Assembly (NCBI RefSeq): GCF_014174155.1
Contig: NZ_JABEQM010000006.1
Span: 62,001-126,000, forward strand
Direction of reading: 5' to 3'
DNA: 64,000 nt
Source of the DNA: Gluconacetobacter tumulisoli
GTDB taxonomy: Bacteria > Pseudomonadota > Alphaproteobacteria > Acetobacterales > Acetobacteraceae
Within the stretch, counting starts at the first letter, position 1, and each line of letters opens with the position of its first letter. The position numbers and the translations under genes were made by a program. Below are positions 6,577-55,531 of this stretch, piece after piece. The notes beneath the pieces were generated by a model. That model worked only from the letters and a program-made list of their open reading frames with translations, was not told where the DNA came from and searched no databases.

Positions 6577-7872
<1,296 letters not shown>

Positions 7873-7874
7873 TT

Positions 7875-7955
7875 GCCCGAAAATTTTCCCCGATCCGGCG
7901 GAAACTGGAAGAAAAACAGTTCCATGCCCCTGGCGGATCGGGAATACTTTCGGGC
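7875..7955 (+). repeat. Imperfect inverted repeat in the eno-ftsB gap
   Basis: Arms at 7875-7897 and 7934-7955 pair over about 22 positions with two mismatches and one bulged C; the outer eight pairs (GCCCGAAA with TTTCGGGC) are perfect. The loop holds a nested GGAAACTG/CAGTTCC pairing. It starts three bases after the eno stop and ends 51 bases before ftsB, so it is either an elaborate eno terminator or a 3'-UTR stabilising structure. There is no T-run, only CGAAAACCG, after the stem. Confidence 0.55.
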
Positions 7956-8006
7956 GAAAACCGCCCCGACCCCGTGTCCGGGGCCTGGCGGAAGGGAACC
8001 TAGACC

Positions 8007-8336
8007 ATGCAGATCGGCCGGATCATCCGACGGGTAGTCCGCATGGTCGTTCCCCCTGCCCTGTTCATCGGCCTGACCGCCTATTTCGGCTGGAACGTCA
8101 TGCAGGGGGACCATGGGTTGCACAGCTACGCCGCCCAGCTTCACCTGCTGGATGAGGCCAGGGCCGCCCAGCAGGACGCAATATCGGAACAGGCGGCCTG
8201 GAGCCGGCGCGTGCGCGGCCTGAAGGAAAGCGCGCTGGATACCGATACGCTGGACGAGCGGTCGCGGGCGATGCTCAACCTGGGGCGCCCCGACGAACTG
8301 ATCGTTCCCTACGGGCCGCACGACCACCTCTACTGA
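8007..8336 (+). CDS. ftsB: FtsB/DivIC-family septum formation initiator
   Basis: Bitopic division protein of 109 residues: an N-terminal membrane helix (about residues 13-31) followed by a periplasmic coiled-coil (about 40-75) and a short C-terminal domain ending near DELIVPYGP. In the family it joins FtsL and FtsQ at the division site. Downstream of eno is its standard place in alphaproteobacteria, which supports the call because sequence conservation is low. Confidence 0.85.
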   Translation: MQIGRIIRRVVRMVVPPALFIGLTAYFGWNVMQGDHGLHSYAAQLHLLDEARAAQQDAISEQAAWSRRVRGLKESALDTDTLDERSRAMLNLGRPDELIVPYGPHDHLY

Positions 8337-8361
8337 CTGACAGGCGGGACAGCCTCCAGAC

Positions 8362-8404
8362 AAAAAAAAGCCGGGCGGTCCGATGACGGACCGCCCGGCT
8401 TTTT
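8362..8404. terminator. Bidirectional terminator between ftsB and rpmG
   Basis: A perfect 14-bp stem (8369-8382 with 8387-8400, loop ATGA) has an A-run on its left and TTTTT on its right. It therefore works as a rho-independent terminator on both strands and serves the convergent ftsB and rpmG genes. Confidence 0.93.
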
Positions 8405-28261: not shown

Positions 28262-28522
28262 TCAGGCGGCGGCGAGAAGCGGGTCGAGCTTGCCGTCGCG
28301 TTCCAGCGCCATCAGGTCGTCGCATCCCCCAATATGCCTTCCGCCGATGAAGATCTGCGGCACCGTCGTGCGACCGCCCGAACGCTCCCGGGCTTCCATA
28401 CGTTCGGCTGTGCCGTGCAGGGCGCGGATCTCGGTAAATTTCATGCCCTTCTGGTCGAACAGGCGGAGAGCGCGGACACAATAGGGGCAACCCGGCTGGG
28501 TGTAGATCTCGATTTTGGGCAT
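28262..28522 (-). CDS. grxC: Glutaredoxin 3
   Basis: 86-residue dithiol glutaredoxin that reduces disulphides with glutathione. The active site is CPYC (residues 12-15) and the glutathione-binding TVPQIFI and GGCDD motifs are present. AGGA six bases before the ATG sets the start. A 94-bp inverted-repeat element lies 31 bases upstream, so the natural promoter may be displaced or replaced. Confidence 0.96.
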   Translation of the reverse strand: MPKIEIYTQPGCPYCVRALRLFDQKGMKFTEIRALHGTAERMEARERSGGRTTVPQIFIGGRHIGGCDDLMALERDGKLDPLLAAA

Positions 28523-28553
28523 GTTCGTCCTCGGCTTGGCATATGGGATGTCA

Positions 28554-28647
28554 GAGGCTGGTTTGAAATTCGTCCTGTTGACGATCCGATGCGATTTTTC
28601 TGCGCCTCGGCACTTTCGCTCCACAGGACGAATTTCAAACCAGCCTC
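28554..28647. mobile_element. Miniature inverted-repeat element (MITE) upstream of grxC
   Basis: A 94-bp element with perfect 25-bp terminal inverted repeats (28554-28578 and 28623-28647) beginning GAGGCTGGTTTGAAATTCG and ending in its complement. It is flanked on both sides by TCA (28551-28553, 28648-28650), a 3-bp duplication of the TNA kind made by IS5-family transposases. It encodes nothing. The 44-base centre resembles that of the degenerate copy at 55454-55531. The IS5-like parentage is inferred from the ends and the target duplication. Confidence 0.8.
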
Positions 28648-28676
28648 TCAGGCATAGCCCACTAGACATAGCGCAT

Positions 28677-29537
28677 TCATCCCACCACGGCATACCGTTC
28701 CCGCAACACGGCATTTTTCTCGGGACGGCGCGGTTCGCCCGGTGCCGGCGCGCGGGCCGCGACCAGCACGTCGACCGATGCCGCCCCGGCGGCCAGCAGC
28801 ACGTGCGCGCATTCGCCCAGGGTCGCACCTGTCGTCATGACGTCGTCCACCAGAAGGATATGTCGATTCGCGACGGTGTCGCGTCTTGTCGGCCGGATCG
28901 CGATTGCACCCCGCAAGGCATCGCGCCGTGCCGCAGGGCCCATCCGCCCCAGCGGCGCAGTCGACCGGACACGGACCAGCATGTCCGGACTGACGATCGT
29001 ACCGGTCGGCCGGCCCAGGGCCCGCGCCAGCAGGGCCGCCTGGTTGTAGCGACGCCTGAACAGGCGCCCCCGATGCAGCGGGACCGGCACCACGATGTCC
29101 GCATGCTCCAGCAGGGACCGGCCAATCCGGCCCATGTGGGCGGCCAGGACCGGCGCCAGTTCGGTCCGGTCGCCGTATTTCAGCCCCAGGACCAGCGGAC
29201 GCGACCAGTCGTCATAGACCAGCGCAGCCCGCCCGGCGCGCCATGGGGGCGGTGTATCCTCGCACGGCCCGCACATCATCCGGGGGCCGCCGAACGATGC
29301 CGATATGAAGGGCTGCCCGCAACGCGTGCAGCACGGGTCGGCGATGAAGGTCAGTTGCCTGAAACAGGTCGGGCAGAAATGTCCGATACGGTCCACGTCT
29401 CCATGGCAGCAGGGGCAGTCCGGCGGCAGAAGGGTATCGAGCAGCCATGATCCGGCACGGCGTGCCGCGCGCACCGTGCCTGGAATGATCCCCCGGCCCG
29501 TCCCCTTGCCCGGTTCAGCGTCACGATACAGAATCAT
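28677..29537 (-). CDS. comF: ComF family phosphoribosyltransferase-like protein
   Basis: 286-residue protein with an N-terminal zinc-binding region (CPCC, CPTCF, CTRCGQP, CGPC) and a C-terminal type I phosphoribosyltransferase fold with ILLVDDVMTTGATL. ComF takes part in uptake of transforming DNA in competent bacteria; in others its role is unclear. The ATG at 29537 lacks a good ribosome-binding site; longer frames upstream overlap the divergent methyltransferase gene and are rejected. Confidence 0.88.
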   Translation of the reverse strand: MILYRDAEPGKGTGRGIIPGTVRAARRAGSWLLDTLLPPDCPCCHGDVDRIGHFCPTCFRQLTFIADPCCTRCGQPFISASFGGPRMMCGPCEDTPPPWRAGRAALVYDDWSRPLVLGLKYGDRTELAPVLAAHMGRIGRSLLEHADIVVPVPLHRGRLFRRRYNQAALLARALGRPTGTIVSPDMLVRVRSTAPLGRMGPAARRDALRGAIAIRPTRRDTVANRHILLVDDVMTTGATLGECAHVLLAAGAASVDVLVAARAPAPGEPRRPEKNAVLRERYAVVG

Positions 29538-55453: not shown

Positions 55454-55531
55454 GAGGCTGGTCCGACGTGCATCCTGGTGGTGATCCGTCGCGCCTTCCT
55501 GCTCAATAGGCCCACATGCCAGACCAGCCTC
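55454..55531. mobile_element. Decayed copy of the GAGGCTGG inverted-repeat element
   Basis: A 78-base segment begins GAGGCTGGTC and ends GACCAGCCTC. Its left arm matches the left arm of the element at 28554 at 18 of 25 positions, and its centre (GATCCG-..GCG..TT..CTGC) follows the same pattern, mostly with transitions. No target duplication remains (GAA on the left, TAC on the right). It lies between the cold-shock and smpB genes and encodes nothing. Confidence 0.6.

Follow-up and report, generated by a model that had tools for sequence, protein, structure and literature searches.

The gap between a comF-like gene and grxC in Gluconacetobacter tumulisoli holds a long perfect inverted repeat, and the locus raises the question of what this sequence is and how it came to lie there. 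Read without database searches, the window (the whole stretch of DNA analysed, 64,000 nucleotides) had been taken to carry a mobile element at this place, moved by an IS5-family transposase. The analysis below leads to much the same answer: the sequence is very probably a non-autonomous transposable element (MITE) that was moved by an IS5-family, IS1031-type transposase. The terminal repeats (consensus RARNCYGTTTGAAAA) would be the binding sites of this transposase, and its cut at TNA would leave a 3-bp duplication, here TGA/TCA. This reading draws on direct observations, namely the sequence itself, the family to which it belongs, the empty site in relatives, the duplications, and the ends shared with IS5 elements of sister genomes; any function of the element, should it have one, is putative.

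The element and its empty site

The full unit spans 28554-28647 (94 bp) and is bracketed by TCA at 28551-28553 and 28648-28650, which reads TGA on the grxC strand. Its terminal inverted repeats of 25 bp, at 28554-28578 and 28623-28647 on the plus strand, are exact reverse complements of each other, so that the 94-bp unit, perfect arms and flanking TCA described from the sequence alone all stand; the left arm fits both the end profile of the family described below and its covariance model, R1. Between them, 28579-28622 (plus strand) is a remnant of the family core, identified from alignment to longer copies and R1; it lacks the middle part of the 162-bp element. The palindrome reaches 26 pairs once the flanking A and T are counted, and it is the longest perfect inverted repeat in the window (arms ≤300 bp apart), ahead of an 18-bp terminator-like hairpin at 8365-8404 and of anything in 20 block-shuffled windows, in which the longest such repeat was 14 bp. 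The G+C content is 52%, against 66% in the window, and folding as RNA is predicted to reach about -59 kcal/mol for both strands (z about -11), a value equalled by 0/200 shuffles. There is no transposase gene in these 94 bp, and the open reading frames that cross them are mechanical only.

The hairpin at 8365-8404 is itself a perfect 18-bp repeat with a run of A before it and a run of T after it, and adjoins the upstream end of a mechanical minus-strand open reading frame (7665-8363). It looks like an ordinary bidirectional terminator.

Both neighbouring genes are on the minus strand, with the element in the gap between them, upstream of grxC. The grxC gene (glutaredoxin 3; 28262-28522) scores above the cut-off of NCBIfam TIGR02181 and passes that of Pfam PF00462. 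The comF-like gene (28677-29432) matches Pfam DZR_2 and Pribosyltran, and NCBIfam comF TIGR00201 with an E-value of 2.2e-22, which is below the cut-off of that model; its start codon is uncertain, and on its own strand the gene stops, at 28677-28679, 26 nt short of the duplication's outer edge.

The grxC upstream region could be read in 13 of 14 genomes of the genus, the host included (grxC was not found in the incomplete genome G013), with the grxC loci of relatives checked by their CPYC motif. The element is absent from all 12 of the other Gluconacetobacter comF-grxC gaps recovered. The two genomes that shared pattern hits assign to G. azotocaptans LMG 21311 and G. johannae LMG 21312 read straight through with a single TGA at the exact position where the host has TGA-element-TGA, while the remaining ten gaps have no base-by-base alignment at the insertion point. 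An empty site with one target triplet, which the sequence-only reading had offered as a check, therefore exists in two relatives. Because 12 other gaps are without the element and two relatives show the single TGA, the window element is a real insertion. Most simply, it would have entered the comF-grxC gap in the host lineage once this had diverged from those of G. azotocaptans and G. johannae, an order of events suggested by the compared sequences.

A dispersed family with IS5-type ends

BLAST with the 100-bp stretch gave 21 rows in the host genome and matches in 4 of 60 relatives (host counted), all of them Gluconacetobacter, and pattern searches added further copies of the family. From eight full-length copies, the covariance model R1 was built, with 162 positions and 49 pairs; its Infernal E-values are rough, coming from a short calibration. 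The window element matches R1 at E 9.2e-15 with two shortened stretches in the alignment. It has lost internal sequence relative to its family, which is about 162 bp long and has a branched-hairpin core; the earlier assignment to the MITEs is supported, while its 94-bp unit proves to be a central-deletion derivative and not the full-size form. At E≤1e-3, the host genome has at least 84 rows at no fewer than 79 distinct places (150 candidates scored), five of the 84 rows being the reverse reading of the same place, and the further genomic copies that had been proposed as a check are thus present in number. A second, decayed member of 78 bp lies in the window at 55454-55531 on the plus strand (R1 E 5.1e-5), with ends GAGGCTGGTC... 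and ...GACCAGCCTC.

The family reaches well beyond the host. R1 matches were found at E≤1e-3 in 14/14 genomes of the genus, with 7 to 142 rows each, and at E≤1e-6 in 27 of 150 Acetobacteraceae genomes and 21 of 102 genera (19 candidates scored per genome), three of these 27 genomes belonging to Gluconacetobacter itself. A class-wide search, with 7 candidates scored per genome, gave matches in at least 2 of 385 genomes, one of them the host. The exact arm pattern occurs in 10 stretches across 84,980 species genomes; three of these are in G. azotocaptans and G. johannae, and the seven in unrelated organisms are taken as chance. In Rfam 15, there were no matches at gathering score for 12 family loci; a copy on a Mesorhizobium plasmid (L281) had no match at E≤1, and L250, a Gluconacetobacter copy, had two at E≤1 that were far below the gathering score. 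Going by titles and the starts of abstracts, no description of the family was found in the open-licence literature. In the annotation of Alphaproteobacteria, R1 can serve as a model for a repeat without an Rfam match at gathering score. A further locus, L040 (G011:C1, about 962189), carries tandem copies of a related core with hairpins.

For the ends, 77 of the 79 host places were examined, those at C2:383600 and C4:113487 being set aside. TNA flanks 61 of the 154 ends, and these 61 follow RARNCYGTTTGAAAATGCG. Identical TGA or TCA is found on both sides of 13 of the 77 copies, and four further copies have identical triplets that are not TNA, while about one copy with identical triplets would be expected by chance (estimated as 77/64). 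That an identical TNA pair survives in no more than 13 of 77 copies counts against the MITE/IS5 reading, as do the four copies with other triplets; a second locus that is filled in eight genomes and empty in five, described below, supports it.

IS5-type transposase genes (PF13340) from the genus define 30 loci, of which 8 have identical TNA beside ends that score >4 on the family profile. Both ends score >15, a value reached by 7.8e-5 of background positions, in three of the 30, all in sister genomes: L098 (883 bp, TTA on both sides), L118 (897 bp, TAA on both sides) and L099 (900 bp, TCA on both sides). The transposases of L098 and L118 pass the NCBIfam IS5 model NF033580 as well as Pfam DDE_Tnp_1 (PF01609) and DUF4096 (PF13340); for L099, the evidence is its PF13340 match. 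Plasmid relatives of L098 with the same ends occur in Gluconobacter, Novacetimonas and Komagataeibacter. Among four L098-type plasmid copies that were fetched, L278 and L279 have the same TNA on both sides, L277 has different flanks (TAA and TGA), and L280 has an altered left end. In the passages of PMC12016507 drawn on here, the IS1031 subgroup prefers TNA and makes a 3-bp repeat, and its member ISLrh has a GAACCTGTC... end and inserted into TGA. An IS5-family element with the same ends, the remaining check that had been suggested, thus exists in sister genomes, and the ends and TNA flanks of these elements argue for the proposed IS5-family mobilisation. The two outcomes that would have spoken against mobility, the same sequence at the same place in all relatives with no other copies and the lack of any transposase-bearing relative with these ends, are both contrary to what was found.

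Scanning the four PF13340 places of the host genome revealed none with family-like, TNA-flanked ends. The sole TNA-flanked inverted repeat at these places, L275 (11/14 bases, 2.2 kb apart), was rejected as a host partner, its ends being unlike those of the family. Because no matching IS5 element was found at these four places, the mobilising enzyme is deduced from relatives, whose sequences suggest that the transposase that moved the window element was of the IS5 family and IS1031 type. In G. johannae there is no PF13340 match, yet family copies are present. A MITE does not require an autonomous partner with the same ends in every genome, and for this reason the element is still classed as one. 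The ends of this family are more variable among copies than those of the usual MITE family, a further point against the MITE/IS5 reading.

Family copies are also found on plasmids of other Alphaproteobacteria. The Mesorhizobium copy matches R1 at 1.9e-15; one end reads TTA followed by GAGACTGTTTGGAAATTC, and the other has a near-complement and again TTA. The starts TTA GAGTCAGTTTGGAAAATC and TTA GAGTCCGTTTTGAAATTC are found in IS5 elements of the same strain. Matches on plasmids of Bosea, Allorhizobium and Agrobacterium, Phyllobacterium, Shinella and Sphingobium have E-values of 2.5e-12 to 0.008, the weakest being L289 (E 0.008). These plasmid copies comprise 10 records and 8 distinct loci, with H18, H21, H23 and the second place of H26 left out.

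Stop codons and paired arms

A different account of the family is that it is now mainly a resident 3′-end hairpin at stop codons, which shields or ends messages and whose pairing is under selection, its mobility being mostly past. We regard this as possible, though on balance not the probable account. The placement of the copies speaks for it. By a rule on G+C by codon position, which is not a gene caller and misses some genes, 28 of the 77 host copies have their start exactly at a stop codon, or 29 if overlaps are left unresolved, and 35, exact ones included, start no more than two bases from one. The proportion is 26/48 for copies with a TNA edge and 7/13 for those with both triplets. Among comparison sites in the same loci, stop codons make up 158 of 1499 noncoding TNA (10.5%) and 95 of 463 CTGA (20.5%); against 20.5%, the binomial tails are 2.8e-7 for 26/48 and 0.008 for 7/13, the 26/48 figure being biased upward, since conservation preserves stop codons whereas free triplets decay. 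An annotated stop codon is also touched at four of the eight plasmid loci (Bosea, Allorhizobium/Agrobacterium, Sphingobium, and Shinella, where the arm overlaps TAG by two bases), with no such contact at the Mesorhizobium and three Phyllobacterium loci. However, insertion at TNA together with loss of harmful insertions could yield an excess at stop codons, and the window copy lies in the grxC leader instead of at a stop codon. The TNA target coincides with stop codons, where an insertion spares the protein and puts a hairpin at the end of the message.

The second line of evidence for a resident hairpin is that the arms change together. In alignment A4 (49 host loci and 60 distinct rows, including reverse readings and fragments of the same places), standard pairs occupy 88.2% of pair cells and 395 cells are changed on both sides; its covariation score is 0.360, against 0.155 when shuffled and 0.046-0.076 for slid pairings, the alignment having been fitted to the model structure, which favours such counts. 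Comparison of one orthologous locus is free of that fit. Where a PqiB/MCE-like gene meets a lipoprotein gene, a 162-bp copy stands directly after TGA in eight genomes, and five genomes have an empty site (G013 and a second G011 copy were left out). The left arms of the eight copies are 54-100% identical to each other, while the two arms within a copy match at 24-27 of 28 positions, except in G011 (18/28), whose right arm equals that of G005. Alignment A5 of this locus is gap-free and was not fitted to R1; the structure counted on it is the fold predicted for L250, itself a row of A5. By this count 17 of 63 pairs are changed on both sides, where slid pairings give 2 to 5, and the score of 0.230 compares with 0.113 in shuffles. 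Further pair types in A5 are not above shuffles (405 of 500 reached the count), and this weighs against selected pairing, as do the mismatched arms of the G011 orthologue and the fact that templated repair of palindromes could preserve pairing by itself. Either structural selection or the templated copying of one arm may keep the arms matched, and a third possibility at the lipoprotein locus is that different copies inserted repeatedly at the same TGA. Orthologous palindromes whose arms have changed together offer a natural test between selection on structure and templated copying.

The copies at this locus (L243-L250, from G010, G006, G008, G001, G007, G003, G011 and G005, respectively) follow the ATGA of the PqiB-like gene. 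In 8/8 filled genomes, the frame from the overlapping ATG is open through the element into the lipoprotein gene, giving 250-256 codons, while the lipoprotein gene at the empty site has 202-210 codons (four of the five genomes translated). These reading frames suggest that an N-terminal lipoprotein extension may have been made from a mobile element, with the overlapping ATG as its putative start codon. The G011 copy (L249) is a natural mosaic, with right arm and core as in G005 and a different, poorly paired left arm; recombination can therefore split the arms.

Transcription of such hairpins would also suit a role at message ends. Table 5 of PMC6413936 gives putative miRNAs (5p and 3p) from short-read sequencing at two places in Thalassospira lucentensis, TTCGGTGCTCACGTACTTTTAG and TGCGCTCCGATGCGCGTGAACC, which by eye fit the core hairpin of the plasmid copies. 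This match to the tabulated sequences is a lead that such hairpins are transcribed, and fragments of repeats of this kind may account for some predicted bacterial miRNAs.

Taken furthest, the material would describe an undescribed alphaproteobacterial branched-hairpin family that uses the TGA stop codon as its insertion site and whose copies now stand at 3′ gene ends, with terminal repeats that drift freely but in step while the hairpin stays, and with one copy turned into the N-terminal part of a lipoprotein. As a whole, this picture is rather unlikely.

The grxC leader and known systems

For the window element itself, read as a MITE of IS1031 type, insertion in front of grxC is an ordinary event, and the wider interest lies in the family. 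The grxC ATG is at 28522-28520, and 31 nt (28523-28553) separate it from the element, the distance that had been given before. GAGGAC ahead of the ATG is intact in the host, and GCGCTATG, common to 12 of 13 aligned grxC upstream regions of the genus (G011 has ACGATATG instead), lies upstream of the insertion. A promoter scan found no sigma-70-type promoter. If the element is co-transcribed, a hairpin in the grxC leader is plausible; it would be very stable, would end 31 nt ahead of the start codon and would not include the likely ribosome-binding site. The element might affect grxC expression.

A stable hairpin between two co-directional genes could also serve comF or grxC as an ordinary intrinsic terminator or attenuator. 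This is very unlikely, since the scan found no terminator-like site with a T-run, the hairpin is absent at the same place from 12 other genomes of the genus, and the family has many dispersed copies; a terminator as its origin is ruled out. Weaker still, and scarcely credible, is a REP/REPIN-type palindrome moved by a RAYT (Y1) transposase, which would share high copy number, palindromic form and intergenic position with the family, and whose GTAG REP termini supply stop codons (in the parts of PMC3733652 used here), but which is opposed by the 3-bp duplications and IS5-type ends and by matches to Y1_Tnp (PF01797) in 0/14 genus genomes against 5/14 controls, a diverged RAYT aside.

The described systems differ from the family in distinct ways. 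REP, BIME and REPIN elements (GTAG and CGTC families) are likewise palindromic and intergenic with termini that can supply stop codons, going by the portions of PMC3733652 consulted, which also give CGTC repeats as missing in Acetobacteraceae; in contrast, the family is much longer, makes a 3-bp duplication, and has no Y1 transposase match in the genus. The Rhizobium-specific intergenic mosaic elements (RIME) are, as characterised in part of PMC2573895, alphaproteobacterial intergenic repeats of unknown function. The comparison with RIME is by description only, so that the family may prove identical to a described rhizobial repeat; among the plasmid BLAST matches listed for three family copies as queries, there was no Sinorhizobium record. 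RIME are palindromic and about 100-200 bp long. The IS1031 subgroup, as represented by ISLrh in the relevant part of PMC12016507, is like the family in its TNA target, 3-bp repeat and ends beginning GARNCYGT, and the sister-genome elements L098 and L118 carry the DDE_Tnp_1 and DUF4096 transposase; the window element differs in being 94 bp long and geneless, with no partner bearing its ends found in the host genome. Bacterial MITEs, in the sections of a review drawn on here (PMC2229807), are small and geneless with terminal inverted repeats and a target duplication, and further resemble the family in their many intergenic copies and stable RNA fold. Most MITEs are said to be A+T-rich, whereas the family is not, and it targets TNA in place of TA; set against MITEs in general, its arms vary among copies while changing in step with each other, and its copies often stand at stop codons.
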